NCBI RefSeq assembly: GCF_028826155.1
Contig: NZ_JAQGPN010000003.1
Location: 1 to 64,000, forward strand
Length of the DNA stretch: 64,000 nucleotides
Direction: 5' to 3'
Source: Mesorhizobium shangrilense
Lineage (GTDB): Bacteria; Pseudomonadota; Alphaproteobacteria; Rhizobiales; Rhizobiaceae
The translations under genes were made by a program, and so were the position numbers. Shown one piece after another: positions 19,678-36,650 of the stretch; within the stretch, counting starts at the first letter, position 1, and each line of letters starts with the position of its first letter. The notes beneath the pieces were generated by a model, which was given only the letters and a program-made list of their open reading frames with translations, had not been told where the DNA came from and ran no database searches.

Positions 19678-19706
19678 TTGACCCTGTCCTAATTCATATA
19701 TATGAC
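19678..19706 (+). promoter_or_regulatory. promoter and candidate operator of the biotin-carboxylase operon
   Basis: TTGACC (19678-19683), 17 bases, TATGAC (19701-19706). The -10 overlaps the perfect palindrome CATATATATG at 19695-19704. The same ATATATATGA block sits on the -10 of the promoters at 26743 and 31222. The predicted leader is about 37 bases to ATG 19750. Confidence 0.6.
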
Positions 19707-19749
19707 ATGTATCACATAGGGGTTAGTGCTCCGATTCAGGGAGGTCGAT

Positions 19750-21120
19750 ATGACGCTGCACAGAGTCCTCGTGGCAAACCGGGGCGAGATCGCCGTTCGC
19801 ATTATCCGTGCTTGTCGTGACCTCGGGATGGAGACGGTTCAGGTTCACTCGTCGGCCGACGAGAATTCGCTGCCCGTCAAGCTTGCCGACGAAAGCGTGC
19901 TGATCGGCCCGCCTCCGGCATCGCAGAGCTATCTCCTGCCCAAGGTGCTCGTGGAAGCGGCCTTGAAGACGGGCTGCGATGCAGTGCACCCGGGCTACGG
20001 CTTCCTCTCCGAGAACGCCGAATTCGCCGAACTCTGCGCGCAGGCCGGGCTTCGCTTCATCGGTCCCTCGGCCGAAGTGATCAGGCTGATGGGGGACAAA
20101 TCGGCTGCGCGCCGTGCCGCCATCGAGGCTGGCGTTCCCGTCACGCCAGGGTCGACAGATCCGATCGTCGATCGCGCCGAAGGTCTGAAGCTGGCGAGGG
20201 AGATCGGGTTTCCGGTGCTGATCAAGGCGTCTGCCGGCGGTGGCGGGCGCGGCATGAGGGTGGTGGAATCGGAGGCCGGCTTCGACGCCGCGCTCGATTC
20301 AGCGACCCGCGAGGCCGAAAGCGCCTTCGGCAACGGCGAAGTCTATATCGAGAAGTATCTCCCGCGCGTGCGCCACATCGAGGTGCAGATCATGGGCGAT
20401 GGCGTCGATATCGTCCATTTCGGGGAGCGCGATTGTTCGATCCAGCGCCGCCACCAGAAGCTGGTTGAAGAAAGCCCATCCCCCGCGCTCAGCGAGAAGC
20501 AGCGCGCCGACATTGCCGACGCCGCCTGCCGGCTGGCCAGGAAGGTCGCGTATTGCGGGGCAGGGACCATGGAGTTTATCCTCGATCCTGCCAGCGGCGA
20601 CTTCTACTTCATCGAGATGAACACGCGCATCCAGGTCGAGCACCCGGTGACCGAAATGGTCACGAATTCCGACCTGGTGAAGATGCAGCTGGTCATCGCC
20701 GATACCGGAAAGCTGCCGGTCACCCAGGACGACGTCGTGTTTTGCGGGCACGCGATCGAGTGCCGGATCAACGCCGAGGACCCCGAGCGCGGATTCATGC
20801 CGAAGCCGGGCAAGCTGACCGACCTGATCTTGCCCTCGGGGCCGGGCGTGCGCGTCGACAGCCATGTCTACCAGGGCTACGACCTGCCTCCCTACTACGA
20901 CTCGCTGATGGCCAAAGTCATCACATGGGGGCGTGACCGCGAGGAAGCGCTGGCCCGCATGAAGCGTGCGCTTGGCGAGATGGAGATCACGGGCGTGCCC
21001 TCCACCGTTGCGTTCCATCAACGGCTTCTTTCGGAACCTGCATTCCTCGAGGGCGACGTCCATACCCGCTTCGTGCGCGAGAGCATGTGGGCCGGCCATC
21101 CGATGCAGGGCATGCTTTAG
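19750..21120 (+). CDS. accC: biotin carboxylase subunit
   Basis: A 456-residue ATP-grasp enzyme that carboxylates the biotin of a carrier protein with bicarbonate and ATP. Landmarks: N-terminal VLVANRGEIAVRIIRACRDL, VHPGYGFLSENAEFAELC, the glycine-rich loop KASAGGGGRGMRVV, the region ERDCSIQRRHQKLVEESPS and the active-site signature EMNTRIQVEHPVTE. Length is that of free-standing AccC. I start at ATG 19750 behind GGGAGG; an in-frame codon at 19726 is less likely. It is the first gene of the seven-gene unit 19750-26646 and the only biotin carboxylase in the window, so it may serve both carrier proteins (22688 and 33701). Confidence 0.95.
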   Translation: MTLHRVLVANRGEIAVRIIRACRDLGMETVQVHSSADENSLPVKLADESVLIGPPPASQSYLLPKVLVEAALKTGCDAVHPGYGFLSENAEFAELCAQAGLRFIGPSAEVIRLMGDKSAARRAAIEAGVPVTPGSTDPIVDRAEGLKLAREIGFPVLIKASAGGGGRGMRVVESEAGFDAALDSATREAESAFGNGEVYIEKYLPRVRHIEVQIMGDGVDIVHFGERDCSIQRRHQKLVEESPSPALSEKQRADIADAACRLARKVAYCGAGTMEFILDPASGDFYFIEMNTRIQVEHPVTEMVTNSDLVKMQLVIADTGKLPVTQDDVVFCGHAIECRINAEDPERGFMPKPGKLTDLILPSGPGVRVDSHVYQGYDLPPYYDSLMAKVITWGRDREEALARMKRALGEMEITGVPSTVAFHQRLLSEPAFLEGDVHTRFVRESMWAGHPMQGML

Positions 21121-21132
21121 GGGATCTTGGAA

Positions 21133-22656
21133 ATGGCATTTGAAAAGGTTTTGGGCGAGCTCGATCGGCGTCGGAAGAAGGCCCTTGCGATGGGCGGCGA
21201 GGCCAAGCTGGCCAAGCGGCGCGAAGAGGGGCATCTGAACGCGCGCGAGCGGCTGGACGCCCTGCTCGATGCGGACAGCTTCATCGAGAGCGGCATGCTG
21301 GCGACGTCGCATCTCCCGAACATGCGCGAAAAGACCCCGGCCGACGGCAAGATTGCCGGCTATGGCAAGGTTGCCGGCCGCGGGGTCGCCATCGTCTCGA
21401 ACGACTTTACGGTGGTGGGAGCGTCAAGCTCCGTCATCAACGGCAAGAAGATCCGGCATATGCGCGAGGTAGCAACCAAGCGCGGCCTGCCGATGGTCTT
21501 CCTGGGTGAATCGACGGGCGCGCGGATGCCGGACCGGATGGGCGCGCAGGGCCGCGCCATCCTCGGCCAGGATCCGGCGGAATATTTGCGCAACCGCAAG
21601 ACGCCGTGGGTCTCGGCTCAGCTGGGGGCCTGCTACGGCTCTTCGACCTGGTACGGCCACATGTCCGACTTCGTCGTCATGCGCAAGGGCGCCACGATGG
21701 CGGTCGCCAGCGGCAAGGTCACGTCGCTGGCGATCAACCAGCCGGTCGACTCCGAGGAGCTTGGCGGGTGGCGTCTTCATGCCGACAAGACGGGCCGTGT
21801 CGACATGGTCGTCGACACCGACGAACAAGCCCTCGAAGCCGTCAAGCGCTTCCTCAGCTATGTGCCGTCCCACAATGGCGAAGCGCCGCCGGTGGCGCCC
21901 TCACAGGAAGCGGGCGGGGAGGCGGACGACATACTGAAGATCCTTCCCGAGAGTTCCACGCAGGTCTACGATGTTCGCAAGATCATCGCCGCCATCGCCG
22001 ATCGCGACAGCCTGTTCGAACTCAAGGGCCGCTTCGGCAAGTCCATCACCACCATGCTCGCGCGCCTTGACGGGCACAGCGTCGGTTTCCTCGCCAACAA
22101 TACCTTCTTCAAGGGTGGGGCAATCGATGTGGACGCCTGCAACAAGGCGATCAGCTTCCTCGTGCTCTGCGACAGCTACAACATTCCGGTCGTCTTCCTC
22201 GTCGATCAGCCCGGTTTCATGATCGGGCTGGAGGGCGAACTGCGCGGTGCGGCGGGCAGGATCATCAACTGGATGAACGCGCTGTCGTTGATGACCGTGC
22301 CGAAGATCTCGGTGATCATGCGCAAGAGCTATGGCCAAGCCTACCTGAACATGGGCGGCGGCAAGAATTCAGACGAAGTGCTGACCTGGCCTACCGCGGA
22401 TCTCGGGTTCATGGCGCCTGAAGTCGGCGTCAACGTTCTCTACGGCGTGACCAAGCAGGGCGACCCCGAACGCTTTGCCGAGCTGGTCGAGCAGATCAGC
22501 CGCGACAGCTCGGCCTGGCAGCTTGCCGAACTCTACGAAGGGCATGAAGTGATCGACCCGCGCGAGACCCGCCACCGGCTGATCGGGCTGCTCGAAGTGC
22601 ATCGCGGCGACGGCGTCGGGCAGCATGTGCTCGCAACCTGGCCAACCAGCTACTGA
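21133..22656 (+). CDS. acyl-CoA carboxyltransferase, PccB/MmdA (12S)-like
   Basis: A 507-residue fused carboxyltransferase of the propionyl-CoA carboxylase beta / methylmalonyl-CoA decarboxylase alpha / transcarboxylase 12S family. Two crotonase-fold halves are visible: RREEGHLNARERLDALLD with GKVAGRGVAIVSNDFTVVGA in the first, and VYDVRKIIAAIADRDSLFEL, VDQPGFMIGLEGE and ISVIMRKSYGQAYLNMGGG in the second. It transfers CO2 between biotin and an acyl-CoA; the acyl group is not readable. I start at ATG 21133; TTG 21127 is two codons earlier. A 73-residue biotin carrier follows 31 bases downstream. Confidence 0.93.
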   Translation: MAFEKVLGELDRRRKKALAMGGEAKLAKRREEGHLNARERLDALLDADSFIESGMLATSHLPNMREKTPADGKIAGYGKVAGRGVAIVSNDFTVVGASSSVINGKKIRHMREVATKRGLPMVFLGESTGARMPDRMGAQGRAILGQDPAEYLRNRKTPWVSAQLGACYGSSTWYGHMSDFVVMRKGATMAVASGKVTSLAINQPVDSEELGGWRLHADKTGRVDMVVDTDEQALEAVKRFLSYVPSHNGEAPPVAPSQEAGGEADDILKILPESSTQVYDVRKIIAAIADRDSLFELKGRFGKSITTMLARLDGHSVGFLANNTFFKGGAIDVDACNKAISFLVLCDSYNIPVVFLVDQPGFMIGLEGELRGAAGRIINWMNALSLMTVPKISVIMRKSYGQAYLNMGGGKNSDEVLTWPTADLGFMAPEVGVNVLYGVTKQGDPERFAELVEQISRDSSAWQLAELYEGHEVIDPRETRHRLIGLLEVHRGDGVGQHVLATWPTSY

Positions 22657-22687
22657 GCCCAGCGCAAGAATTCGTCGAGGAAAGATC

Positions 22688-22909
22688 ATGAGCGACATTC
22701 AAGTAGAAGCTTCGTTGACGGGCACCATCTGGAAGATCCTGGTCACGGAAGGCGAGACGGTTTCCGAGAACCAGACGGTTGCCATCATCGAGGCGATGAA
22801 GATGGAGATTCCCGTCGTCGCCAGCGACAGCGGCGTGGTGCGCACGGTCCATGTGAAGGAGGGCGACGCAATCGCGGAAGGCGACAGCGTCGTCACCATC
22901 GACGGCTGA
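22688..22909 (+). CDS. minimal biotin carrier protein (1.3S / BCCP-like)
   Basis: A 73-residue protein that is only a biotinyl domain, with the acceptor Lys38 in IEAMKMEIPV and the paired strands VEASLTGTIWKILVTEGETV and VKEGDAIAEGDSVVTIDG. It lacks the N-terminal AccC-binding segment and linker of a normal AccB. Its size fits stand-alone carriers that accompany PccB-like subunits. The start ATG 22688 has AGGAAAG upstream. It probably shuttles carboxybiotin from the biotin carboxylase to the PccB-like enzyme directly upstream, and possibly to the 5S-like enzyme at 34217. Confidence 0.93.
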   Translation: MSDIQVEASLTGTIWKILVTEGETVSENQTVAIIEAMKMEIPVVASDSGVVRTVHVKEGDAIAEGDSVVTIDG

Positions 22910-23010
22910 GCCACGCTCATGCCCGACTGCCGGCGCGATCGCCCTTGCGGCCCGCGCGTCGGTCCCGCCCTGCGCGCTGAACGTTGCCGCGCCGATACGG
23001 AGCAATCCGC

Positions 23011-24066
23011 ATGAAGAAGCATTGCATCGTCGCCGGCGCCCTGGGCATCTCCGGGCGCGCCCTTCTCGAACATCTCGAGAAAGACGAGACATGGGACGTC
23101 ACCGCGATATCGCGCCGGCGCCCCGATTTCGCAACACGGGCGAACTTTCTAGCGCTCGACCTGATGTCGGCTGAGGACTGCGCCCGGGCGTTGCGGGATC
23201 TGTCCAGCGTCACCCATGTCTTCTACGGCGCACATGTTCGGCACGCCGACCCTACACGGGAGGCGGCGCTGAACCTTCAGATGCTGCGCAACCTCGTCGA
23301 GGGCATCGAGGCGGCCAGTCCTCGTCTCAGCCGGGTCGTGCTCCTGCATGGCACCAAGTGGTATGGCAACCACCTGGGGCCCTTCAAGACCCCGGCCCGG
23401 GAGGACGACCCGCGCCACATGCCGCCGAATTTCTACTACGACCAGCAGGACTGGATCGCGGAACATCAGAAGGGCAAATCCTGGGCATGGAGCGCGCTGC
23501 GCCCGCACTGCATCTGCGGGCCTGCGATCGGCAGCCCGATGAGCCACCTGCTCGGGCTCTGCCTCTATGCCGCGATCTCGCGCGAGCTCGGTTTGCCGTT
23601 GTGTTTTCCGGGCGCCAAGGGCGCTTTCGAGGCGATGTACCAGTTCACGGACGCTGCCTTGCTCGCGCAGGCGATGGTCTGGGCGGGAACGGAGCCCGGC
23701 TGCGCCAACGAGGCCTTCAACATGACCAATGGAGAGGTCGAGCGCTGGTGCAACCTGTGGCCGCACCTGGCGCGGCAGTTCGGGATGGAAGCCGGGCCTG
23801 TCCGGACGATCAGCCTGGCAAAATACATGGCCGACAAGGAGCCGCTGTGGCAGCAGATCTGTGCGCGGCGCGGTCTCGAATACCATCGTATGGATGAGCT
23901 CGTGGACTGGTCGTTCCTCGATTGGGCCTATGGGGCCGACTACGACCAGGTCTCGTGCCTGGGTAAGGCGCGGCGGGCCGGATGGACGGCATCGGTCGAC
24001 GCCCGGGAGATGTTCGAACGGCAGATCGGACGGCTCGTCGAGATGCGGATCATTCCCGGGCCCTGA
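23011..24066 (+). CDS. PRISE-type short-chain reductase (progesterone 5beta-reductase / iridoid synthase-like)
   Basis: A 351-residue extended SDR. The nucleotide-binding motif is VAGALGISGRALLEHL with SRRRPDF behind it, suggesting NADPH. The PRISE-family signature is present: LLHGTKWYG with Lys116, and PPNFYYDQQDW with Tyr142/143, in place of the usual YxxxK pair. Known PRISE enzymes reduce the C=C bond of enones or enals by 1,4-hydride addition. I start at ATG 23011; the frame extends 27 bases further. Its place in an acyl-CoA/biotin operon suggests that the catabolised substrate, or an intermediate, is an alpha,beta-unsaturated carbonyl compound. Confidence 0.85.
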   Translation: MKKHCIVAGALGISGRALLEHLEKDETWDVTAISRRRPDFATRANFLALDLMSAEDCARALRDLSSVTHVFYGAHVRHADPTREAALNLQMLRNLVEGIEAASPRLSRVVLLHGTKWYGNHLGPFKTPAREDDPRHMPPNFYYDQQDWIAEHQKGKSWAWSALRPHCICGPAIGSPMSHLLGLCLYAAISRELGLPLCFPGAKGAFEAMYQFTDAALLAQAMVWAGTEPGCANEAFNMTNGEVERWCNLWPHLARQFGMEAGPVRTISLAKYMADKEPLWQQICARRGLEYHRMDELVDWSFLDWAYGADYDQVSCLGKARRAGWTASVDAREMFERQIGRLVEMRIIPGP

Positions 24067-24117
24067 GCCGCGCAAATTTTGGCTCCGGCAGTGTCGGCAA
24101 GAGGTGGAGGAGACGGC

Positions 24118-24432
24118 ATGAGACAAGCTGTCGTGGTCATGTACGACGCGGAGGCTGAACTCGACGAGTGGATGCATGGACCCCACTATGACGAGGTGCT
24201 GGCCACGCCGGGCGTTGTCGCCGTCCAGCGCTTGCGTGTGACCGAGGGGCCTGAAGGAAGCCGCAGGTACATCGCCATCATAGAGACGAGCGATCTCGAG
24301 GCCACGCTTGCCTGGCGCAACAGCCCGGCCGGAAAGCGGTCGCAGGATGAGGCGAACGAGCGTGGTGTCAGCCGCCGATGTTCCATGCTTGCCGATGTGA
24401 TCTTCGACGCAAGCGCTGCGCATGATCGTTGA
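24118..24432 (+). CDS. small dimeric alpha/beta-barrel protein
   Basis: A 104-residue protein with the pattern of ferredoxin-like dimeric barrels: AVVVMYDAEAELDEWMHGPHYDEVLATPGVVAVQRLRV and a second strand RRYIAIIETSDLEATLAWRN, given here in parts as AVVVMYDAEAELDEW, HGPHYDEVLATPG and RRYIAIIETSD. Such proteins (EthD, muconolactone-isomerase and DUF4286 types) often isomerise or bind small cyclic compounds. The start is ATG 24118 after GGTGGAGGAG. It ends inside the leader of the ATP-grasp gene, overlapping that frame but not its likely start at 24449. Confidence 0.65.
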   Translation: MRQAVVVMYDAEAELDEWMHGPHYDEVLATPGVVAVQRLRVTEGPEGSRRYIAIIETSDLEATLAWRNSPAGKRSQDEANERGVSRRCSMLADVIFDASAAHDR

Positions 24433-24448
24433 TCAAGGAGAGTTTGAG

Positions 24449-25174
24449 ATGTCCATGGACAGGCAGAAGGTGGCCGAATATGTCGTGCAGGCAGCGCGCG
24501 CCGGCCGGCCCTTGCTCAGGGAGGCCGAAGCAAAATCGGTGCTCGAGAGCTTCGGGCTGCGCGTGCCGCGCGGTGTGACCCTGGCCTTCGACGAGGATCC
24601 GGCGGCTGCGGTAGGAACCCTCAGGCCTCCCTTCGTCGTCAAGGTGATGTCGGAGCGGATCGTTCACAAGACCGAGCACGGCGGCGTGGCGCTCAACTTG
24701 CAGGATCTGGAGGCCGTTCGGGCAGCGATCGCGGACATGAAGTCGCGGCTCGGATCACTGATGGCCCCCTCGGATGGCTGGCTGGTCGAGGAAAGCATCC
24801 CCCGCGGAACCGAAATCGTCGTCGGCGGCGCCATCGATCCGCGTTTCGGACCGACCGTCATGTTCGGCCTGGGCGGCATCCTGGTCGAACTGATGGCGGA
24901 CGTGGCTTTCCGGATCTGTCCGATTACGCGCGCCGACGCCAGGGACATGATTGCCGAGCTGAAGGGGCGCAAGCTGCTCGACGGATGGCGCGGTTCGCAG
25001 GCGGTCGACCTCGAGACGATCGAGGAGACGCTGCTGGCGATCGGCGGCGAGGGTGGGCTTCTGCTCGCGTTGGAAGAGGCGGTCTCGGAACTCGACATCA
25101 ATCCCATGATCGCCACCGCAGACGGGGTCGTGGCGGTCGATGCGCGGATCATTCTCAAGGGAGACGTTCACTGA
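24449..25174 (+). CDS. NDP-forming acyl-CoA synthetase, ATP-grasp (beta) subunit
   Basis: A 241-residue ATP-grasp protein matching the beta subunit or C-terminal domain of ADP-forming acetyl-CoA synthetase. Landmarks: FGLRVPRGVTLAFD, PFVVKVMSERIVHKTEHGGV, VEESIPRGTEIVVGGAIDP, FGPTVMFGLGGILVELM and SELDINPMIA. It binds nucleotide and transfers phosphate to or from the alpha-subunit histidine during acyl-CoA formation. The start ATG 24449 lies behind AAGGAGAG. Its stop overlaps the alpha-subunit gene (TGATG). The acyl substrate is unknown. Confidence 0.9.
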   Translation: MSMDRQKVAEYVVQAARAGRPLLREAEAKSVLESFGLRVPRGVTLAFDEDPAAAVGTLRPPFVVKVMSERIVHKTEHGGVALNLQDLEAVRAAIADMKSRLGSLMAPSDGWLVEESIPRGTEIVVGGAIDPRFGPTVMFGLGGILVELMADVAFRICPITRADARDMIAELKGRKLLDGWRGSQAVDLETIEETLLAIGGEGGLLLALEEAVSELDINPMIATADGVVAVDARIILKGDVH

Positions 25175-26646
25175 TGGATACGATCGCATCGCAGCGCGAT
25201 CTCGGTGCCCTGTTCGCTCCGCGCGCAGTCGCTGTCGTCGGCGCCTCGGCGACGGGGGATTCGGTCGCCAACCGTTTCTTGCGCAACCTTCGCCGGCTGT
25301 CCTTCGAGGGCGAGGTCTACGTCATCCATCCCAAGGCCGCCGAGGTCGAAGGGTTTCGCACCTATCCGTCCTTGGCGGAAATGCCCGGGGAAGTGGACTA
25401 CGCCTACATCGCCGTCGCGGCCGAACGCACGCCGGGATTGTTCGCCGGGGCGGCGAACAAGGTGAGGTTCGCGCAGGTGGTCTCGAGCGGCTTCGCGGAA
25501 GTCGGCCGGCACGACCTGCAAGACGAATTGTTGGAGGCTTGCGGCGCCGCGGGCGTACGTCTCCTCGGGCCGAACTGCATCGGAACCCATTCAAGTGGGG
25601 GCCGGATTTCATTTCACGCGCAGCCGACCACGCTGAAGTCCGGTCCTGTCGGGATCATTTCACAAAGCGGCGGGCTTTCGACGGATATCCTCACGCGCGG
25701 CCGGATGAGGGGAGTGGGTTTCCACTCGGTCATCTCGGTCGGCAACAGTGCGGACCTTGGACCCGTCGAACTGCTGGAACACATGCTGGCCGATCCCGCC
25801 ATTCGGGTCGTTGGCCTCTATCTGGAGGATATCGTCAGGGGCCGCGCCTTCTTTGACGTGCTGCGCCGCGCCGGCGCCGCCAAGCCGGTGGTCATCCTGA
25901 AGGGCGGCCGCACGGCGGCCGGGCAGCGAGCCTCGATGTCCCATACGGGCGCGCTGATGGCCGACGACCGGATCTGGCAGGCGCTGGCCCGCCAGACCGG
26001 CGCGGTGCTGGTCGAGAGCCTCGACCGTTTCGTCAACGCGTTGCTTGTCTTCCAGACCGTCGCGCCGCGCACGGACCGTGCGACGCGAAGGGTCTCGCTG
26101 TTCGGCAATGGCGGGGGAACGAGCGTTCTGGCCGCCGATGCGTTCAGCCGTGTTGGCTTGGACGTTCCGGCGCTCTCGCAAGCGGCGAACGATGCGCTGG
26201 AGGCGCTGAAGCTGCCCCCCGGAACCAGCATCGCCAATCCCATCGACGCTCCCGGCACCACCCTCAAGCTGGACAGCGGAAGGATCGGGGTCGAGATCTT
26301 GAAGGGCATCATGCTCGACCGGGACATCGATCTGATCGTCACCCACATCAACATGTCGGTGATGCTCGGATATCAGGATCGCGAGATCGTGCCCAATTTC
26401 GTCAACGGCGCGGCAGCCCTGCGCCATCAGGAGTCGAACGCGCCCCACCTGGCGCTGGTGCTGCGTTCAGGCGGCGAGCCGGAGGTCGAAGAGGGGCGGA
26501 ATGCGCTGCGCGAGCATCTTCTGGGCCTCGGCATTCCGGTGTTCGACGAGCTGGAGGACGCGGCTCTCGCTTTCTCGGCACTGGCCGTCCATGAGAGTTT
26601 TCTGCGCCGCTCGCAAGCCGGGCACGAACATCTTGATGCCGCATAA
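25174..26646 (+). CDS. NDP-forming acyl-CoA synthetase, CoA-binding (alpha) subunit
   Basis: A 490-residue protein with a CoA-binding Rossmann domain (LFAPRAVAVVGASATGDSVA, then YVIHPKAAEVEG), a succinyl-CoA-ligase-like flavodoxin domain (GIISQSGGLSTDIL, HSVISVGNSADL) and the phosphohistidine region GGRTAAGQRASMSHTGALM. It pairs with the ATP-grasp subunit just upstream to make acyl-CoA plus ADP and phosphate, or to run in reverse with ATP gain. Split subunits are typical of bacterial and archaeal ACD enzymes. It closes the first unit of the island; a promoter for the next unit follows within 100 bases. Confidence 0.92.
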   Translation: MDTIASQRDLGALFAPRAVAVVGASATGDSVANRFLRNLRRLSFEGEVYVIHPKAAEVEGFRTYPSLAEMPGEVDYAYIAVAAERTPGLFAGAANKVRFAQVVSSGFAEVGRHDLQDELLEACGAAGVRLLGPNCIGTHSSGGRISFHAQPTTLKSGPVGIISQSGGLSTDILTRGRMRGVGFHSVISVGNSADLGPVELLEHMLADPAIRVVGLYLEDIVRGRAFFDVLRRAGAAKPVVILKGGRTAAGQRASMSHTGALMADDRIWQALARQTGAVLVESLDRFVNALLVFQTVAPRTDRATRRVSLFGNGGGTSVLAADAFSRVGLDVPALSQAANDALEALKLPPGTSIANPIDAPGTTLKLDSGRIGVEILKGIMLDRDIDLIVTHINMSVMLGYQDREIVPNFVNGAAALRHQESNAPHLALVLRSGGEPEVEEGRNALREHLLGLGIPVFDELEDAALAFSALAVHESFLRRSQAGHEHLDAA

Positions 26647-26742
26647 GTCCTGTAAAAACAAGCAGATGGAGCAACGCTAGAGCTCTGCAATCGGCGATGT
26701 GGATAGGGCTCTGCGTGCTCCGCGTTCGGCATCGATATATGA

Positions 26743-26770
26743 TTGACCTAAGATAAATCATATATATGAT
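26743..26770 (+). promoter_or_regulatory. promoter and candidate operator of the NMT1-type importer operon
   Basis: TTGACC (26743-26748), 16 bases, TATGAT (26765-26770). The -10 is the right half of a perfect 14-bp palindrome ATCATATATATGAT at 26757-26770. A partial copy, GATATATGAT, overlaps the -35 at 26734-26743. The same AT block is found at 19695 and 31239. The leader to ATG 26879 is about 100 bases. Confidence 0.6.
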
Positions 26771-27979: not shown

Positions 27980-27989
27980 GCCTGGCCTA

Positions 27990-28825: not shown

Positions 28826-29703
28826 CGAGTTCGCAGGCGACTACGATGTCGCGCGCGCCCACGGCCCGCGATGATGACTCCGGCGTGGCCGCGGCAATGC
28901 CCGTGGCGCGACCGCGCAAGAACCTGGCAAACTCGCCTGTCGCCGTGGCTCTCGGATGGGCCACGATCAGCGTGCTGTTCCTCGGCCTCTGGGAGTGGGC
29001 AGGGCAGACGAAGCAGATCAACGTGCTGTTCTTCAGCTATCCCTCCGCGATCTGGGATCAGCTGCTGAAAGGTCTGGCGACCGACCTGCTCACCGTGGAT
29101 ACCAGAACCACGCTCCTGTCGGCCTTTTCGGGCTTTGTCGTCGCCGCCGTGGCGGGGGTTCTGCTCGCCTTCGCGCTGTCGCAACTGCCCTATGTGAACA
29201 AGGTCCTGCGCCCCTTCTTCACGGCGTTCAACAGCCTGCCGCGCATCGCCCTGGCTCCGCTCTTCATCATGTGGTTCGGCATCGGCGTCTTCTCCAATGC
29301 GGTCATGGCCGGCAGCCTCACCTTCTTCGTCGTCTTCGCCAACACGATGGCTGGTTTCGAAGGGGTGGACCAGGACCACCTGCTGCTTTCGCGCCTTCAG
29401 GGCGCGACGCGGTGGCAGGTGTTCCGGTATTTCGTCATCCCTTCGGCGCTGCCAAGCATCTTCGTGGGGCTGGAACTCGGCTTCATCTTCGGAATGCTGG
29501 GCGCAGTGGGCGGCGAAATGATCGCCGGCGAGCGCGGCCTCGGCGTCCGCCTGCAGCGGGACGCCGGCGTCTTCAATACGGCTGGCTACTTCGCCACGCT
29601 GTTCATGCTGATCATCATCAGCTCGATCCTGATGGCGCTGTTCCAGCTCATCAAGCGGCGCATGGTGCGGTGGCAGGATGCGCACCTGATCAAGAGGGCG
29701 TGA
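28822..29703 (+). CDS. ABC transporter permease (nitrate/sulfonate/taurine type)
   Basis: A 293-residue inner-membrane permease with six or so helices after a 40-residue cytoplasmic N-terminus. The EAA-type loop is DHLLLSRLQGATRWQVFRYFVIPSAL in part (QGATRWQVFRYFVIPSALP), and the segment FFTAFNSLPRIALAPLFIMW is typical of the SsuC/TauC family. It forms the membrane channel for the importer with the ATPase upstream. Its stop is two bases before the GTG start of the EthD-like gene. Confidence 0.93.
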   Translation: MTSSQATTMSRAPTARDDDSGVAAAMPVARPRKNLANSPVAVALGWATISVLFLGLWEWAGQTKQINVLFFSYPSAIWDQLLKGLATDLLTVDTRTTLLSAFSGFVVAAVAGVLLAFALSQLPYVNKVLRPFFTAFNSLPRIALAPLFIMWFGIGVFSNAVMAGSLTFFVVFANTMAGFEGVDQDHLLLSRLQGATRWQVFRYFVIPSALPSIFVGLELGFIFGMLGAVGGEMIAGERGLGVRLQRDAGVFNTAGYFATLFMLIIISSILMALFQLIKRRMVRWQDAHLIKRA

Positions 29704-29705
29704 CG

Positions 29706-30344
29706 GTGGAACACATCGTCCGCATCGGACTGTCCCGGCGATCCGAGGGGCTTACCCGGGCCGCCGCCCAGGCCTACTGGCGGACAGTCCATGCGGACGT
29801 GTTCCGCAAGCTGCCCAAGCTCGTCTCCTATGTGCAGAACCACGCCGTTCTGGTCGACGAAGACCATGCTCTCCTAGATGATTGTCCTTTCGACATCTTC
29901 GCCGAGGTGACCTTCGCGACCAGGCAGGATCTCACTGAAGCGAGCAGCAGCGAGTACTATCGCAGCGCCATCCTGCCCGACGAGGCGAACCTCCTGGTTC
30001 CCGAAGGGCGCAGCTTCCTTCTCCTCCAACGTGATGCGCTGCGGCCGCCGGCTCCTGCGCAAGTCACGCTGGCTGCCTTCCTGTCCGAAAAATGGAATCC
30101 GGCGGCCGGCGGACAGGCGCCGGCGATGATCGAGCGGGTCGAGGAGGGCTCCGGACCCATCGGATCGCGGACGCGCTTTTATGCGCAATGGCGCTGCGAT
30201 ACGGCGGCTGGCGCCTTGTCGCTGTACCAGACCCTTCGTGGCGAAAGCTGCTTTGCGGGCAGCCTTGTGGCGGCGACGGTGGTGCGGCCCAACGTGGTGG
30301 TCGGCTCTGCCGCGGGGGGACGCTGCTGCGCAGCGCAAGACTGA
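29706..30344 (+). CDS. EthD-domain protein of unknown function
   Basis: A 212-residue protein starting at GTG 29706. The first 110 residues look like an EthD/dimeric-barrel domain: HIVRIGLSRRSEGLTRAAAQ, YWRTVHADVFRKLPKLVSYV and FDIFAEVTFAT. The remaining part (about 120-210) may be a second, diverged copy of the same fold (VERVEEGSG-like segments and FYAQWRC). EthD proteins accompany ether- and ring-degrading systems. It is placed between the importer and a TauE-type permease, so it probably acts on the imported compound or its first product. The exact reaction is unknown. Confidence 0.7.
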   Translation: MEHIVRIGLSRRSEGLTRAAAQAYWRTVHADVFRKLPKLVSYVQNHAVLVDEDHALLDDCPFDIFAEVTFATRQDLTEASSSEYYRSAILPDEANLLVPEGRSFLLLQRDALRPPAPAQVTLAAFLSEKWNPAAGGQAPAMIERVEEGSGPIGSRTRFYAQWRCDTAAGALSLYQTLRGESCFAGSLVAATVVRPNVVVGSAAGGRCCAAQD

Positions 30345-30355
30345 AGCATTCGCAT

Positions 30356-31111
30356 ATGGAATTCTCCCTTGACGCCCAGGCGCACGTCATTCTAGGCGTC
30401 GCGGCCCTTCTCGCGGGGCTCGCAAAGGGGCTCGCCGGCTTCGGGTCGGCGCTGGTGTTCATGCCTCTGGCCAGCGCAGCCGTCGGACCCGTCGTGGCCG
30501 GGCCGATCTTCATCGTGATCGATTGCATCACCTCGTTCCCGCTGGCCCGAATAAGCTGGGCCTTTGCCGACCGGGCCGCTGTCGCCCGTATTGGCCTGGT
30601 CGCCGGAATTGGCCTTCCTGTCGGCATCGGCATCCTGGTCTCGGTGGATCAGACAATGATCCGCTGGATGATCTCGCTGTTCTGCCTTGCCAGCGTCTTC
30701 GTCCTGATGCTCGGCCTGCGTGTCGACGGCAGGCTGCAACGCGCGTCGACCTTTGTCACGGGTCTGCTTTCCGGCATCTTCCACGGTATTGCGCAAATCG
30801 GCGGCCCGCCCGTCCTTCTGCTCTGGATCGCGCAGGGACACGCCAAGGCAACGATCCGGGCCAACGCCTTGCTCTATTTCGCGCTGCTGACCATCGCAAC
30901 GTTCATCATCTTCGTGGCGATCGGCATCTTCAGCTGGACCTCCTTCACTTATGCGCTGATCCTCCTGCCGATCTATGCTGGCGGGCTGGTCGCGGGCGGC
31001 TGGCTCTTCGGCAGGACAAGCGATCGATGGTTTCGCGCCGCGTCCTACGCGCTGATCGTCGGCGCGGCCATCGCCGGGCTGCCTGTGCTGGATGGTCTCC
31101 TGGGCGACTGA
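30356..31111 (+). CDS. sulfite exporter TauE/SafE family permease
   Basis: A 251-residue membrane protein with seven to eight helices and the duplicated TauE/SafE motif: ALLAGLAKGLAGFGSALVFM near the N-terminus and TGLLSGIFHGIAQIGGPPVL in the second half. Family members move sulfite, sulfoacetate or other small organic anions. It is the last gene of the importer unit, 11 bases after the EthD-like gene, and is probably a second transporter for an anion in the same pathway, for uptake or release. The TauA-like importer plus TauE-like permease may hint at a sulfonated substrate, but no sulfonate-cleaving enzyme is seen. Confidence 0.88.
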   Translation: MEFSLDAQAHVILGVAALLAGLAKGLAGFGSALVFMPLASAAVGPVVAGPIFIVIDCITSFPLARISWAFADRAAVARIGLVAGIGLPVGIGILVSVDQTMIRWMISLFCLASVFVLMLGLRVDGRLQRASTFVTGLLSGIFHGIAQIGGPPVLLLWIAQGHAKATIRANALLYFALLTIATFIIFVAIGIFSWTSFTYALILLPIYAGGLVAGGWLFGRTSDRWFRAASYALIVGAAIAGLPVLDGLLGD

Positions 31112-31221
31112 GACCGGGCGCTCGTTCTGTAGATGGCCGGCCACGTTCCGGCGGTCTTCGCCGTCCACAGCCTGCATCCCCGTCCACCGATTTCGGCAGA
31201 ATCTGAGGTGCCGCCTTTAGA

Positions 31222-31250
31222 TTGCGCTGGACAAAATAGATATATATGAC
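31222..31250 (+). promoter_or_regulatory. promoter and candidate operator of the amidohydrolase operon
   Basis: TTGCGC (31222-31227), 17 bases, TATGAC (31245-31250). The -10 lies in GATATATATGA (31239-31249), the same block as at 19695 and 26759. The predicted leader is about 40 bases to ATG 31298, which has GGAGGAAG. Confidence 0.55.
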
Positions 31251-31297
31251 ATGGTTGTTTTAGATGAATGCTATCATGCGAACAGCGGAGGAAGCGT

Positions 31298-32173
31298 ATG
31301 ATCACTCCACCCATCATTGACATGCGACTGAGGCCGCCGATCCCGGCCTGGACCCGCGGGACCGTCTTCAAGACCGCGATGCACTACCCGCGCCATTTCT
31401 TCACCTTCAAGGGGGCGCGTTCGGCCTGGACAGAATCCGTCGACATGCTGTTCGAGGAGATGGATTCGGCCGGCATCAAATACGGCGTCCTCGTCGGCAG
31501 GGCCTCGGCCGGAGCCGGCAATCTCGGTGGCGTCGAGAATCGCGAGATCGTCGAGGCCGTCACCACCTATTCCGACCGCTTCCTCGGCTTTCTGGGGATC
31601 GATCTCGACAATATCGAGCAAGGTCTGGCCGAGGTGCGGGAATTCGCTTCCTGTTCCAACATCAAGGGCATCTCGATCGAGCCGGGTTCGGCCCGCGAAC
31701 CCCGCTGGTCCGACGATGCCAGCCTGACCCCGATCTACGAACTGGCGCTCGAGCTGGACCTGCCGGTCTCCATCTCGCTTTCCGGCCTGCTCTCGGCGCT
31801 GGCGGGACACGACATTACCTGGTCAAGTCCGGTTTCGATCCAGAGGGTGGCGCGGCGGTATCCGGATCTGAAGATCATCGTGTCCCATGCGGCATGGCCT
31901 TACGCGGACGAGATGGTCGTCGTCGCCCTGGCGTGTCCCAACATCTATGTCTCGCCCGATCTCTACGCCGCGACCGCAGGCATGATCTGCGCCGACAGCT
32001 ACGTGAAGGGCGCGAACCTCTTTCTGGAAGACAGGATGCTGTTTGGAACGGCCTATCCCGTCAAGGACATCCAGGAATCGCTGCGCGACTTCCTCGGGAT
32101 GGGCTGGCGGCCGGACATCATCCACAAGCTGCTCTGGGGCAATGCCGCCAAGCTTCTGAAGGTAACCGCCTGA
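31298..32173 (+). CDS. amidohydrolase-2 family protein
   Basis: A 291-residue TIM-barrel protein of the amidohydrolase_2 (ACMSD-like) family, whose members are metal-dependent decarboxylases and hydrolases. Visible parts: IIDMRLRPPIPAW at the N-terminus, YGVLVGRASAGAG, GFLGIDLDN, KIIVSHAAWPYADEMV (barrel His), and MLFGTAYPVKD followed by KLLWGNAAKLL at the C-terminus. The usual N-terminal HxH metal motif reads DMRLRPP here, so both histidines are missing, as in some non-metal lactonase-like subgroups. The start ATG 31298 follows GGAGGAAG. It is first in the third unit of the island. Confidence 0.87.
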   Translation: MITPPIIDMRLRPPIPAWTRGTVFKTAMHYPRHFFTFKGARSAWTESVDMLFEEMDSAGIKYGVLVGRASAGAGNLGGVENREIVEAVTTYSDRFLGFLGIDLDNIEQGLAEVREFASCSNIKGISIEPGSAREPRWSDDASLTPIYELALELDLPVSISLSGLLSALAGHDITWSSPVSIQRVARRYPDLKIIVSHAAWPYADEMVVVALACPNIYVSPDLYAATAGMICADSYVKGANLFLEDRMLFGTAYPVKDIQESLRDFLGMGWRPDIIHKLLWGNAAKLLKVTA

Positions 32174-32245
32174 GATAGCGGCAAGCTCGATCGCCGAGCG
32201 GCGTCGCATTCGTAGACAGCAAGAAGATTCAAAGGAAACAAGTCC

Positions 32246-33610
32246 ATGAACATGCCGGTAACGCGCATGATCGCGGAGCGAGTCAGTGAAATATCCCTGG
32301 CCGATATTCCGCATGAGAGCGTGGATTACGCGAAAACACTCATGCTGAGCGCGATCGGCGCCATCGTGCAGGGTCCCGATTGCACGGGCGGCGACATCAT
32401 CGAGCGCTATGTCGAGCGCACCGGCGGGGCCGAAGAGGCAATGCTCTTCGCCACCGGACGCCGACTGCCGATGGAGGCCGCCGCGCTGGCCAACGCGACC
32501 TTCGCGCATGCGACGGAATATGAAGACGACAGCTTTCCGGAGGCCGTGTCGAGCTACACGATCGTGCCGGCCGTTCTCGCGGTGGCGGAACAATGCGGCG
32601 CCTCAGGTGCGGACATGATCGCCGCCTTCGTGGCGGGCTATGAGACGCAGGCGCGCATAGGGCTTGCCTGCCGCGAGGCGCGTCGGCGCGGATACATGGT
32701 GCTCAGTCTTGCAGGTTCGATCGGCTGCGCTGCGGCTGCAGCAAGGCTCATGGGGCTCGATGCGGAGCGCACCGCCCATGCCCTCAGCATCGCCGCCTCG
32801 CAGGCGAACGGGCTCGGATACCAGACCGGCACCATGGCGCATATTGTCGAGATGGGGTTTTCGGCGCGCAACGGCATCTGTGCCGCGCTTCTGGCGAAGG
32901 ATGGATACACCGGGCAGCTGGACATCCTCGAGGCGCCGCGCGGCCTGTTCAATCTGATCTGCGCCGACAATGTCGACGCGCCAGAAAAGATCATCGAAGA
33001 CTGGGGCCGGCCCTACCGCATCCACGAGGTCGGCATCAAGGAGTTCCCCTGCTGCTATCACCTGCAGCGCATGATCGAAACCGCGCTCGAGCTGCGTGAA
33101 AGCGAGGGACTTCGCCCGGACCAGATCGAGGAGATCGAGGTCCACGTGAACGCCTTCTTCCCGACGGTCGTCCAGCATGACGATCCGTCGAACGAGATCG
33201 AGGCGCAATTCAGTCTGCCGCACGCCTTTGCGGTTGGTCTGCTCGAAGACGTCATAGATCAATCGAGCTTCGCTGTAGAGCGCATTGGCGACCCCCGCTT
33301 CAGCCATGTCAGAAGCCTCGTCAGAACCGTCGTCCGCGACGACTGGGGTTGGAGCCCGACGGGATGGACGCCCCGCATTGCCTTCACGCTCAAGGACGGT
33401 CGCCAGATCCTGCGCGAACCCGAGCATTCGCGAGGGCAGCCGCCGAACCTTTTCAGCTTCGACGAATGCGAGCCGAAATTCCGCAAATGCGTGACCGCGC
33501 GCCTTGGCGAGGATGCGATCCAGACGGTGCTCAAGGACCTCTCGGTGCTCGAGCAACTGGATGACGTTTCGAGGCTCGTCGCCGCCCTGGCAAGCGGCGC
33601 CCGACGCTAG
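32246..33610 (+). CDS. MmgE/PrpD family protein
   Basis: A 454-residue protein of the MmgE/PrpD family, which includes 2-methylcitrate dehydratase and cis-aconitate decarboxylase. Landmarks: ERVSEISLADIPHESVDYAK, AALANATFAHATEYEDDSF (the family HAxEYDD-like site), IAAFVAGYETQARIG, LSIAASQANGL, GFSARNGICAALLAKDGYTG and KEFPCCYHLQRMIET. The family includes dehydratases, decarboxylases and several proteins of unknown activity. The ATG 32246 follows AAAGGAAACAAG. With an amidohydrolase before it and a biotin carrier after it, it probably acts on a hydroxylated di- or tricarboxylic intermediate; that is inference. Confidence 0.9.
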   Translation: MNMPVTRMIAERVSEISLADIPHESVDYAKTLMLSAIGAIVQGPDCTGGDIIERYVERTGGAEEAMLFATGRRLPMEAAALANATFAHATEYEDDSFPEAVSSYTIVPAVLAVAEQCGASGADMIAAFVAGYETQARIGLACREARRRGYMVLSLAGSIGCAAAAARLMGLDAERTAHALSIAASQANGLGYQTGTMAHIVEMGFSARNGICAALLAKDGYTGQLDILEAPRGLFNLICADNVDAPEKIIEDWGRPYRIHEVGIKEFPCCYHLQRMIETALELRESEGLRPDQIEEIEVHVNAFFPTVVQHDDPSNEIEAQFSLPHAFAVGLLEDVIDQSSFAVERIGDPRFSHVRSLVRTVVRDDWGWSPTGWTPRIAFTLKDGRQILREPEHSRGQPPNLFSFDECEPKFRKCVTARLGEDAIQTVLKDLSVLEQLDDVSRLVAALASGARR

Positions 33611-33700
33611 CCGCCATTTCCGCAGGCCCCGGCATGGCGCGCAGTTTCCCTGCAACGCCAGCCGGCTCGCCTGGCAGCAGAGCCCTACATCGAGGACAAA

Positions 33701-34210
33701 ATGACTGCATCCAGCTTGACGCACGAAGACGTCACCCAGACGCTGCGCCTGGTCGAGGAGTTGCCTGACGGCGAACTCGTTCTGACGAAAGGCGATTTTT
33801 CGCTGACCATCCGGAAGGGGATGACGGGCGCCGGCGCGCCCGCTCCCGTAGCCGCAGCGCGGTCCGAACCGCCCGCTCCGGCCCCTGTACCGCAGACGGC
33901 GCCGGTTGCCGAAACCCGGGAAGCGACTGCTCCCGCTTCATCTCCGGCAGACGTTTCGGCCGACGAAGGGCATTTCGTCATGAGGGCGCCGATGCTGGGA
34001 TGCTTCTATCGCGCGGCCTCTCCCGACGAGCCGCCGCTCGTGGATGTCGGTTCCCACGTGGCAGCCGGCGATACGGTCTGCCTGATCGAGGTGATGAAGC
34101 TCTTCAACACGATCGGCGCGGAAATTTCCGGGCGCGTGGTCGCCGTCCATGCCGAGAACGGCGCGATGGTCGATGCCGGCGCGCCGCTGTTCACCATCAT
34201 GCCGGATTGA
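33701..34210 (+). CDS. accB: AccB-like biotin carboxyl carrier protein
   Basis: A 169-residue carrier of the acetyl-CoA carboxylase type. Residues 1-43 form the N-terminal region (LTHEDVTQTLRLVEELPDGE), 44-86 an Ala/Pro linker, and 90-169 the biotinyl domain with the thumb segment APMLGCFYRAASPDEPPLV and acceptor Lys133 in IEVMKLFNTI. It differs clearly from the 73-residue carrier at 22688. It lies six bases upstream of the 5S-like carboxyltransferase, so it probably carries CO2 to or from that enzyme; a biotin carboxylase is not present in this unit and must come from 19750 or elsewhere. Confidence 0.93.
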   Translation: MTASSLTHEDVTQTLRLVEELPDGELVLTKGDFSLTIRKGMTGAGAPAPVAAARSEPPAPAPVPQTAPVAETREATAPASSPADVSADEGHFVMRAPMLGCFYRAASPDEPPLVDVGSHVAAGDTVCLIEVMKLFNTIGAEISGRVVAVHAENGAMVDAGAPLFTIMPD

Positions 34211-34216
34211 TCTGCC

Positions 34217-35713
34217 ATGGCCCTTGACCCTCTCGCAACGCCGGGCAGCTCCGATCGCGGACGCAGGATCGGCATCATCGACACGACCCTGCGCGACGCC
34301 CAGCAGTGTCTTTGGACGACGCGCATGACGGCGGGCATGATGGCCCCCATCGCGCCAACCATGGATCGGGCCGGCTACGACCAGATCGATTTTATGGCCC
34401 CGGTGCAGTTCGACGTCTGCGTGCGCTATCTGCGCGAAGATCCGTGGGAAAAGGCGCGCTTTTTCCGCCAGCAGTTCCAGCGCACGCCGCTCAGGGGCTA
34501 TTGCCGCAGCAAAAGCCTTCTCGGCTTTGCCATGGTGCCGGATGACATCGTCGAGCTTTGGATCGAACGTTTGTGCGCCAACGGCTTCTCCGTGGTCGGC
34601 ACGCTCGACGCGCTGTTCGACGTCGACAACATGGTGGTCAGCCTGCGTCGCGCGAAGGCGCTGGGCATGCGGGCGATCGGGGCGCTCGTCTTCTGCGAAA
34701 GCGAGGTCCACACCGATGAGCTCTATGCACAGACCGCCAAGGCCCTGGTCGAACGCGCCGATATCGACGGCATCATGATCAAGGACTCCGGCGCGCTGCT
34801 CACGCAGGATCGCATCCGGACGCTGGTGCCCGCGCTCAAGGCGGTGCTGGGGCATCGCAGCCTCGAGCTCCACAGCCATTGCAACACCGGGCTGGCGCCG
34901 GTCGTCTACCTCGAGGCCGCCCGCCTGGGGATCGACCAGCTGCACACGGCCGTCGCGCCGCTCGCGGGTGGGCCGGCGCAACCTTCCGCCCAGCAAACCC
35001 GCCACAATCTGGAGCAGATCGGGTTCGCCACCGACCTCGACATGCAGGCGATCGAGGAGATCAGCGAGTATATCCGCAACGTCGCCGCACAGGAGGGCTT
35101 TCCGCTCGGCGCGGCGATGGACTACGACGTCTTCCACTACAAGCACCAGATGCCGGGCGGCATGCTCGCCAACTGGCGCTTCCAGCTTCGGCAGGCGGGG
35201 CTGGAGGATCGTTTCGACGAGATCCTGGAGGAAATCGTACGGATCCGGCGCGAGCTGGCATGGCCGATCATGGTCACTCCGTTCTCGCAGATCATTGCCG
35301 TGCAGGCGATGCTGAACGTGGTTGGAGGCGAGCGCTATGCTTCCGTTCCGGACGAGGTCAAGATGTATGCCCTCGGTCATTTCGGCAAGCTGCTGGCGCC
35401 TGTCGATCCGGATGCACTCGACCGCATCGTCGCGAACGGGGCGAGCAGCATTCCGCTGGCGCCGGTTCCCCTGGAGCCGGCTCTTCCCCAGCTTCGGCGC
35501 AAGTATCCGAACGCCAGCGACGACGAGCACCTGTTGCGCTTCATGTTCCCGGGCAACGACGTCGAGGAGATGATCGCGGCTGGGCCGCTGCGGACGGAAT
35601 ACTCGCTCAACCAGCCGATCGAGAGGCTTCTCAAGGGGCTGGGGTCCCAGAAACGCCTGACGCATCTGTCAGTCTCGAAGGGCAGGGATCGCATCTCCTA
35701 CACGCGAGGCTGA
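34217..35713 (+). CDS. stand-alone carboxyltransferase of the pyruvate carboxylase / transcarboxylase 5S family
   Basis: A 498-residue HMGL-like TIM barrel followed by the conserved carboxylase C-terminal domain. The metal site is complete: Asp27 in DTTLRDAQQ, the lysine expected to be carbamylated (Lys189 in IMIKDSGALL), and His219 and His221 in LELHSHCNTG. The C-terminal part keeps MPGGMLANWRFQLRQAG and VTPFSQIIAVQAMLNVVGGE. The substrate loop reads FMAPVQFDVCVRYLREDPWE where pyruvate enzymes usually have GGATFD, so the 2-oxo acid may not be pyruvate. It has no biotin domain; the AccB-like carrier six bases upstream supplies it. A hairpin follows the stop. Confidence 0.9.
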   Translation: MALDPLATPGSSDRGRRIGIIDTTLRDAQQCLWTTRMTAGMMAPIAPTMDRAGYDQIDFMAPVQFDVCVRYLREDPWEKARFFRQQFQRTPLRGYCRSKSLLGFAMVPDDIVELWIERLCANGFSVVGTLDALFDVDNMVVSLRRAKALGMRAIGALVFCESEVHTDELYAQTAKALVERADIDGIMIKDSGALLTQDRIRTLVPALKAVLGHRSLELHSHCNTGLAPVVYLEAARLGIDQLHTAVAPLAGGPAQPSAQQTRHNLEQIGFATDLDMQAIEEISEYIRNVAAQEGFPLGAAMDYDVFHYKHQMPGGMLANWRFQLRQAGLEDRFDEILEEIVRIRRELAWPIMVTPFSQIIAVQAMLNVVGGERYASVPDEVKMYALGHFGKLLAPVDPDALDRIVANGASSIPLAPVPLEPALPQLRRKYPNASDDEHLLRFMFPGNDVEEMIAAGPLRTEYSLNQPIERLLKGLGSQKRLTHLSVSKGRDRISYTRG

Positions 35714-35731
35714 CTGTTCACAGAGGTGGTG

Positions 35732-35761
35732 CTGGAAAGGCTCCCACGCGAGCCTTTCCAG
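35732..35761 (+). terminator. hairpin after the 5S-like gene, terminator-like
   Basis: Perfect 12-bp arms CTGGAAAGGCTC / GAGCCTTTCCAG with a CCACGC loop, 18 bases after the 34217-35713 gene and before the gntR promoter region. It has no T-run. It probably separates the third unit from the regulator gene. Confidence 0.55.
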
Positions 35762-35782
35762 ACGGCATATTCCTATAGATAA

Positions 35783-35800
35783 TGTAGAAGTTTCGCTACA
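35783..35800 (+). promoter_or_regulatory. inverted repeat upstream of the GntR gene
   Basis: TGTAG (35783-35787) and CTACA (35796-35800) form an inverted repeat with an 8-base spacer, next to an AT-rich TATAGATAAT that could be a -10. Its place 40-58 bases before the gntR start suggests an autoregulatory site. The sequence is not the ATATATATGA block found at the other three promoters. Confidence 0.35.
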
Positions 35801-35840
35801 AGTACGGTACCTACGGCAAAACAGCGGTACTGGATGCGCC

Positions 35841-36650
35841 ATGGATGAAACGCAGGACACCGAAACCCAATCGATGGCACAGAAAGGACGCGTCCACAGG
35901 CGCGCCCTGAGTGCCGTCTTCGGTGACGGATCGCGGCCTCTCTACAAGGAGGTGAAGCTGGCGCTGACGCGCCTGCTTTCAAGCGGCGATGTCGGTCCCG
36001 GGGAAGCAATCCCGACCGAGAAGCAGCTTTGCGAACAGTTCGGCGTGAGCATCGGGACGATCCGCAAGGCCATCGACGAGCTGGTGGCCGAACGGGTTCT
36101 GGTTCGCCAGCAGGGGCGCGGCACCTTTCTCGTGAGCCATACGCCCGAACGCATGCTGAACCGGTTCTGGCGGATTGTCGGGCGCAACGGCGCGCGCGAG
36201 ATCCCGATCGTTCAGACGCTGACCTTCAAGCGGTCCGTGGCCGACGACGCCATTGCCGCGGCCCTGGGTATCGCCAAGGGGGATGCGGTCTTTTCCATCG
36301 TGAACCTGCAGCTTCTGGGCGGAGCTCCGGTCGTGCTCGATGAAATCATCCTGCCGCACGCCGCATTCCCGAACCTCACCGAACAAGGCCTGCGTACGCG
36401 CGACACCACGATGTATGGCTATTACCAGGAAGCCTTCGGCGTCAACATCATCAACGTCTTTGACAAGCTGAGTGCGATCAAGGCGGACAAGTTCGTCGCC
36501 GAGCATCTTTCGGTCAAGGTCGGAGAGCCCATTCTCAAGGTGCAACGCATTGCGTGCACGTTCGACAACCAGCCTGTCGAGCTGCGTTATTCGCAGATCC
36601 AGACGGAGAACTACGAATACCACAACACCATGGGCATGCAGTCGACCTAA
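35841..36650 (+). CDS. GntR family regulator, HutC/UTRA subfamily
   Basis: A 269-residue regulator. The winged helix-turn-helix spans about residues 30-100 (SRPLYKEVKLALTRLLSSGD, AIPTEKQLCEQFGVSIGTIR, ERVLVRQQGRGTFLVS). The UTRA effector domain follows (about 115-265, with GDAVFSIVNLQLLGGAPVVL and LRYSQIQTENYEYH). UTRA regulators sense small metabolites of the pathway that they control. It sits at the end of the 19678-36650 island, and HutC-type proteins are known to bind AT-rich palindromes such as those at the three unit promoters, so it is the prime candidate regulator of the island. Confidence 0.92.
   Translation: MDETQDTETQSMAQKGRVHRRALSAVFGDGSRPLYKEVKLALTRLLSSGDVGPGEAIPTEKQLCEQFGVSIGTIRKAIDELVAERVLVRQQGRGTFLVSHTPERMLNRFWRIVGRNGAREIPIVQTLTFKRSVADDAIAAALGIAKGDAVFSIVNLQLLGGAPVVLDEIILPHAAFPNLTEQGLRTRDTTMYGYYQEAFGVNIINVFDKLSAIKADKFVAEHLSVKVGEPILKVQRIACTFDNQPVELRYSQIQTENYEYHNTMGMQST

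Follow-up and report, generated by a model that had tools for sequence, protein, structure and literature searches.

Gene content of the island

The window analysed here is a stretch of 64,000 nucleotides, read on the forward strand, from a 198 kb contig of the 5.5 Mb genome of Mesorhizobium shangrilense. It contains at 19,750-36,650 a catabolic island of seventeen genes, all on the plus strand, in which the apparent parts of two biotin-dependent carboxylases stand together with a single biotin carboxylase (BC). A first-pass annotation, made from the sequence alone, had named the biotin-system and catabolic genes of this island, and all of them are recovered by Pfam and NCBIfam. BC itself (19750-21120) is identified by these families, and a BC tree places it in the lineage of the CT5S-type (ketone) carboxylases. 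It is followed by CTb (21133-22656), a carboxyltransferase of the PccB/12S fold with a Carboxyl_trans match, which by its motifs (CYGSSTWY and RKSYGQAYLNMGGG) forms a distinct subfamily, and by BCCP1 (22688-22909), a 1.3S-like biotin carrier of 73 residues with a Biotin_lipoyl match. Towards the other end lie BCCP2 (33701-34210), an AccB-like biotin carrier in Pfam and NCBIfam, and CT5S (34217-35713), a carboxyltransferase of the 5S/PYC_OADA fold (HMGL-like and PYC_OADA matches), which falls in a clade of putative ketone carboxylases in a carboxyltransferase (CT) tree. A biotin-lysine motif is present in both carriers, EAMKM in BCCP1 and EVMKL in BCCP2. Start codons were taken from automated gene picking, with 33701 used for BCCP2 instead of a shorter picked start.

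Between these two groups are further catabolic genes. The protein encoded at 23011-24066 belongs to the PRISE-family reductases in Pfam and NCBIfam and has the motifs HGTKWYG and NFYYD, which we take to be the catalytic motifs of that family. AcdB (24422-25174, ATP-grasp_5) and AcdA (25174-26646, Succ_CoA_lig) are the ATP-grasp and CoA-binding subunits of an ADP-forming acyl-CoA synthetase, spanning 24422-26646 together. AmH (31322-32173) has the Amidohydro_2 fold in Pfam; by motif inspection it lacks HxH and the terminal Asp (the GSDYP-like site), presumably the usual metal ligands of amidohydrolases, and carries IDMRLRPP and FGTAYP at these sites. Its nearest solved sequence, 3irs (BB4693), has much the same motifs (IDFRLRPP and FGTAYP) and is itself uncharacterised; by sequence, "amidohydrolase" is only a family name for AmH. 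The MmgE/PrpD-family protein (32246-33610, Pfam) has an IDS-epimerase as its nearest solved sequence.

Conservation and distribution

A search of genome contigs with CT5S yielded at least 550 relatives, of which the best 80 were kept. Nine of these loci (L038-L046, group A) encode a CT5S 68-71% identical to that of the island, and the core consisting of BC, CTb, BCCP1, PRISE, AcdA/AcdB, AmH, MmgE, BCCP2 and CT5S is present in 9/9 of their genomes, or in 10/10 with the window. Thus, the co-occurrence of the 5S-like, PRISE and 12S-like genes in other genomes, which the first-pass annotation had proposed as a check, is found in every one of these relatives, and its view of the island as one biotin-dependent gene set is supported. 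CTb of the relatives is 68-72% identical to the island protein; AmH, the most conserved protein of the set, is 76-82% identical in 9/9. Gene order and transporters differ among the clusters, and each has one BC (10/10). AcdA/AcdB are a single fused frame in L045 and L134. BCCP1 adjoins CTb in 10/10 clusters and BCCP2 adjoins CT5S in nine, the exception being L038/L134, where about 12.5 kb containing genes that look by eye like transposase genes, a thiamine pyrophosphate (TPP) enzyme and a GMC oxidoreductase separate BCCP2 from CT5S. In L039/L135, the two halves of the set are on separate contigs, and their linkage is therefore not visible. Among the other 71 kept loci, many of which end at contig ends, matches covering at least half of the query reveal a nearby CTb (at least 50% identity) in L057 only and no PRISE.

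The hosts of group A are metagenome-assembled genomes (MAGs) of Xanthobacteraceae and other Hyphomicrobiales, a proteobacterial MAG that is not placed further, and members of Marivibrio, Polaromonas and Modicisalibacter; cultured hosts include Marivibrio halodurans (L045) and Modicisalibacter muralis (L038). Some of the loci are close kin in the CT tree, namely L039, L040 and L042, and L044 with L046. In the family of the window's genome, CT5S is detected at E<=1e-120 in 2/297 genomes including that genome, the other locus (L144) being a CT5S-BCCP-BC locus without CTb. AmH is detected at E<=1e-90 in 1/385 genomes of the class, which is the window's own, and CTb at E<=1e-150 in 5/297 and 2/398 genomes of two samples, each including the window's genome. 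The gene set is rare and sporadically distributed, yet conserved. The combination was not found described among the open-licence papers listed by the literature searches, and the cluster looks like an undescribed pathway.

A TPP enzyme is encoded near 7/9 group-A clusters (L038 6191-7879, L041 4343-6040, L043 1481-3178, L135, L136, L139 and L142). The copies are 63-67% identical to that of L038 and in three cases adjoin a GMC oxidoreductase. This enzyme was considered as a core member and rejected, since its best match in the window's genome is only 33% identical.

Lineages of the carboxyltransferases

CT5S of the island is 31% identical to 5S and 35% identical to OadA and PycB of known structure. 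In a CT tree of 50 rows, group A forms one clade (100/100) inside a clade of 41 rows (100/100, branch 1.81), mostly linked to BCCP and BC, which is separate from both OadA/PycB/5S and pyruvate carboxylase (PC). The motif WGGAT[FY]D is present in 9/9 rows outside this clade (four of OadA/PycB/5S, L011 and four of PC) and in 0/41 rows within it, while the RD..Q and TP motifs are kept wherever a row covers them. CT5S as an orthologue of 5S was rejected on this tree placement and on the missing WGGATFD motif.

Relatives of CT5S stand in CT5S-BCCP-BC operons, some of which include a 3-oxoacid CoA-transferase, a thiolase or a BKACE. In group C, CoA-transferase genes are found in 16/44 loci and thiolase genes in 17/44, and in group B, BKACE is found in 6/27, the names being taken from annotated records and further members being assigned by similarity. 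Three loci, L035-L037, are labelled Hpe-like from their annotated neighbours, and their carboxyltransferases are 34-41% identical to island CT5S. HpeCBA is described in excerpts of its report as an ATP-dependent enzyme carboxylating a ketone to a 3-oxo acid (PMC9618137), and XccBCA, likewise in excerpt, as a biotin-dependent ketone carboxylase (PMC8461187). By analogy with HpeCBA, the CoA-transferase, thiolase and BKACE neighbours fit a 3-oxo acid product, and the other operons of the CT5S clade appear to encode HpeCBA/XccBCA-type ketone carboxylases. As separate observations, 12/27 group-B loci (L047-L073) carry a relative of a gamma-glutamyltranspeptidase-family protein, of which the L047 copy was family-scanned, and L031, L101 and their kin are CT5S-BCCP-BC operons of actinobacteria, which in some cases include BioY, CoA-transferase and thiolase and which possibly encode a widespread uncharacterised ketone carboxylase.

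CTb is 32-33% identical to PccB (3n6r) and 12S (1on3). It has CYGSSTWY and KSYGQAY in place of the canonical GGA-Y and YGG-Y motifs of PccB-type carboxyltransferases, which presumably form the oxyanion hole, and its active-site motifs are shared by the BC-bearing CTb modules L138 and L141. The features of an acyl-CoA carboxylase, namely a PccB-fold carboxyltransferase, a carrier and a supply of CoA esters, are found in CTb, BCCP1 and AcdAB, the last 1.5 kb downstream. Elsewhere, CTb modules have their own BC (L138, L141, and L162 and L163 of the window's genome). The latter two lie on the window's own chromosome (L162 2239-12579 and L163 6280-17797), each with BC and BCCP; one of them has AcdAB, TauE, TctC and PF03601, and the other has CoA-transferase III, a second carboxyltransferase and an NMT1 ABC importer. 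The first-pass annotation had held that independent occurrence of the two halves would refute its reading. Relatives of both halves do occur apart elsewhere, each with its own BC, whereas here they are joined with one BC.

One biotin carboxylase and two carriers

The ten island BCs group as a single clade (100/100) in a BC tree of 48 rows. The BCs of five CTb-only clusters (L032-L034, L138 and L141) are separated from them by a branch with 95/91 support, as is the BC of L163 in the window's genome (row L008). The BC of L162, which is outside the tree, is 49% identical to the island BC and 64% identical to that of L141. The island BC directly adjoins CTb-BCCP1 in 6/10 clusters (window, L039/L135, L040, L041/L137, L042 and L043), BCCP2-CT5S in 3/10 (L044, L045 and L046) and neither in 1/10 (L038/L134). 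None of the 10 BCCP2 rows or of the 13 BCCP1 rows, in which some genomes appear twice, has lost the biotin motif MK. A second CTb at E<=1e-100 is absent in 7/9 relatives. Most simply read, these sequences reflect the addition of CTb-BCCP1 to a ketone carboxylase whose BC they have come to use.

Proposed pathway and alternatives

From the gene set, its conservation, the BC and CT5S lineages and the neighbourhood statistics, all of which were computed, we infer the sharing of BC, the order of the reactions, the substrate and the direction of CTb. The proposal, to which a probability of about one half is given, is that two different biotin-dependent carboxylases, one for a ketone and one for an acyl-CoA, use one BC in one catabolic pathway. 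The substrate would be a water-soluble acid, possibly an organosulfonate, taken up by the ABC or TRAP importers. PRISE probably reduces an enone or enal ahead of ketone carboxylation. BC, BCCP2 and CT5S would then act as an ATP-dependent carboxylase of a ketone (or keto acid) to yield a 3-oxo acid in the manner of HpeCBA/XccBCA. AcdAB would make the CoA thioester, and CTb with BCCP1, charged by the same BC, would carboxylate the acyl-CoA, while AmH and MmgE may catalyze further steps. An enoyl-CoA hydratase and a 3-hydroxyacyl-CoA dehydrogenase are encoded inside the L134 cluster, and a thiolase is encoded near 2/9 group-A clusters (L038 and L045), which together fit a beta-oxidation-like end of the pathway.

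Several points weigh against this proposal. The fork joining the island BCs to the nearest ketone-type BCs is supported only at 87/88. Of the 41 rows of the CT5S clade, 38 keep the Arg that presumably binds the carboxylate of pyruvate; the three rows without it are L036, L037 and L010, and every one of the 10 group-A rows has it, so that a 2-oxo acid or another acid is possible as the substrate of CT5S. In most loci of groups B and C, no CoA-transferase/thiolase or BKACE neighbours were seen. The carboxyltransferase of HpeCBA is a putative member of the clade, assigned from neighbours and subunit sizes. Finally, several further BCs in the window's genome could charge BCCP1 in trans, and in 2/9 relatives (G324 and G327) the contig of the cluster carries, about 30 kb away, another CTb module that has a BC of its own.

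This last point leads to the main rival to sharing, in which BC serves only BCCP2 and CT5S, while BCCP1 and CTb of the same pathway depend for their charging on a different BC from elsewhere in the cell. The BCs of the L162 and L163 modules would be at hand for this in the window's genome. It is nevertheless rather unlikely, because the search for CTb revealed only one in 7/9 relatives and because BC stands directly beside CTb-BCCP1 in most of the clusters.

The first-pass annotation had likened the island to the propionibacterial transcarboxylase (12S-1.3S-5S). In such a relay, BCCP1 would receive CO2 that CTb takes from a malonyl-type acyl-CoA, CT5S would add CO2 to a ketone or 2-oxo acid, and the role of BC would be limited to priming or topping up. 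All three folds are indeed found in the island, none of the 10 clusters has lost a carboxyltransferase or a carrier, and a BC of the CTb lineage is missing from 10/10, although CTb modules elsewhere have one. The analogy as such is not supported: the island has two carriers of different types, each tied to its own carboxyltransferase, instead of one bridging 1.3S; a BC is kept in every cluster; CT5S belongs to another lineage than 5S; and the motifs of both carboxyltransferases differ, CTb being set apart from 12S by identity (33%) and motifs. In addition, we know of no case of CO2 transfer from carrier to carrier, which also counts against the relay, and it appears improbable. By its sequences, the island resembles a ketone carboxylase together with an acyl-CoA carboxylase rather than a member of the transcarboxylase family.

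An ordinary propionyl-CoA carboxylase and a two-subunit PC as chance neighbours, suggested by family-level annotation names and the nearest solved sequences, have a comparably small chance and were rejected, since the genome already has a conventional one-chain PC (C1:781340), CT5S lies outside the 2-oxo-acid carboxyltransferases in the tree and lacks their motif, the identity of CTb to PccB and 12S is low, and the set is conserved in 10 genomes. The sodium-pump decarboxylases (OadA/MmdA with a beta subunit and a carrier) have the same carboxyltransferase folds, but were rejected because the host genome has 0 matches to PF03977 (OAD_beta), a control search being positive in 2/14 named genomes.

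Among known systems, sharing of a BC subunit occurs in mycobacteria, where AccA3 works with several AccD proteins; BC and carrier are fused in AccA3, and the substrates are all acyl-CoAs. The island would resemble this system in having one BC for more than one carboxyltransferase, but it has two types of carrier, both as separate proteins, and the ketone/pyruvate fold in one of its carboxyltransferases. It resembles HpeCBA, XccBCA and AcvCDE, the last a biotin-dependent (phospho)aryl ketone carboxylase as mentioned in an excerpt of PMC13101465, in that BCCP, BC and carboxyltransferase are three separate subunits and in that both its CT5S and its BC fall, in the trees, among operons of this apparent kind. 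It differs in adding CTb/BCCP1, AcdAB, PRISE, MmgE and AmH, and, compared with the Hpe and Acv pathways, the genes of the island include neither a kinase nor an HpeD-like phosphatase.

Possible link to sulfur

The island includes a TauE/SafE (PF01925) exporter (30356-31111, Pfam). Putative sulfite/sulfate exporters are enriched near CTb, so that the substrate may be an organosulfur compound. By phmmer, genes of the TauE or PF03601 families occur near 6/10 group-A clusters and 5/13 CTb-only modules versus 1/77 CT5S loci without CTb (Fisher p 3e-6 for group A and 1e-7 for all CTb places), the sets being stretches of unequal length with some close kin and with some genomes in both the group-A and module counts. 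Among 20 PF03601 copies in 15 CTb genomes, 7 lie within 15 kb of CTb versus 0.19 expected (Poisson 1e-9, or about 2e-8 after dropping one close relative). With Pfam, a TauE gene was located in the cluster or no more than about 6 kb from it, with distances judged by eye, in 6/10 genomes (G000, G321, G322, G324, G325 and G328) versus 0.67 expected, and in 5/8 versus 0.47 expected with kin dropped; the copies near G321 and G324 were missed by phmmer, on which footing alone the 77 control loci were counted.

A number of observations weigh against a sulfur link. SsuA for the importer binding protein and sulfoacetaldehyde acetyltransferase (Xsc) for the TPP enzyme are the best NCBIfam families, both below cut-off. 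In G323, G325 and G326, PF03601 is 12-13 kb from CTb with other genes between. Neither family is seen close to the cluster in G327 and G329, nor, by phmmer, at 8/13 CTb-only modules, and of the nine such modules outside the window's and group-A genomes, three have TauE or PF03601 (L034, L168 and L171). TauE is also abundant, with 4-11 copies per genome. The two families may carry other anions, and the organosulfur link from this association is suggestive only. A bolder version, in which a new transcarboxylase acts on a sulfonated ketone or acid, is the least probable of all the readings considered: a late decarboxylation by CTb would send CO2 via BCCP1 and the shared BC/BCCP2 to CT5S for carboxylation of the incoming ketone, so that CO2 would be recycled and ATP saved, and sulfite would leave via TauE or PF03601.

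Other genes in and around the island

The ABC importer of the island consists of three genes (26939-29703, NMT1-type in Pfam), encoding an NMT1/SsuA-like binding protein (26939-27979), an ATPase (28031-28825) and a permease (28846-29703). The importer beside the cluster is an NMT1 ABC importer in the window, L044 and L046 and a TRAP importer in L038-L042 and L045; none was seen beside the L043 cluster. EthD1 (24133-24432), a small DUF4286/DUF1330-like protein with matches below the Pfam cut-offs, has a homologue in 4/9 relatives, and an EthD-domain protein (Pfam) is encoded at 29700-30344. The island ends with a GntR/UTRA regulator (35841-36650, Pfam), which has a homologue in 8/9 relatives and none seen in L038/L134.

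Upstream of the island, at 11326-19000, a GMC oxidoreductase, a multihaem cytochrome c, cytochrome c oxidase subunits II and I and CtaG are encoded in one run. Downstream, at 36814-49249 on the minus strand, are genes for a GH31 protein, an isomerase, a sugar-type ABC importer, an MR_MLE dehydratase, a creatininase-family protein and an FAD oxidase; the sole NCBIfam match of the isomerase is sulfoquinovose isomerase, at 131 bits versus a cut-off of 700.

Implications

If BC is shared, a single BC would feed two carriers and two carboxyltransferases of different folds in one pathway, one acting on ketones and the other on acyl-CoAs. Biotin-dependent ketone carboxylation, which is shown for phospho-hydroxyphenylethanones in the excerpted report (PMC9618137), would then be extended by this gene set to another type of pathway. 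The set is compact, recurs in ten genomes and lends itself to testing.

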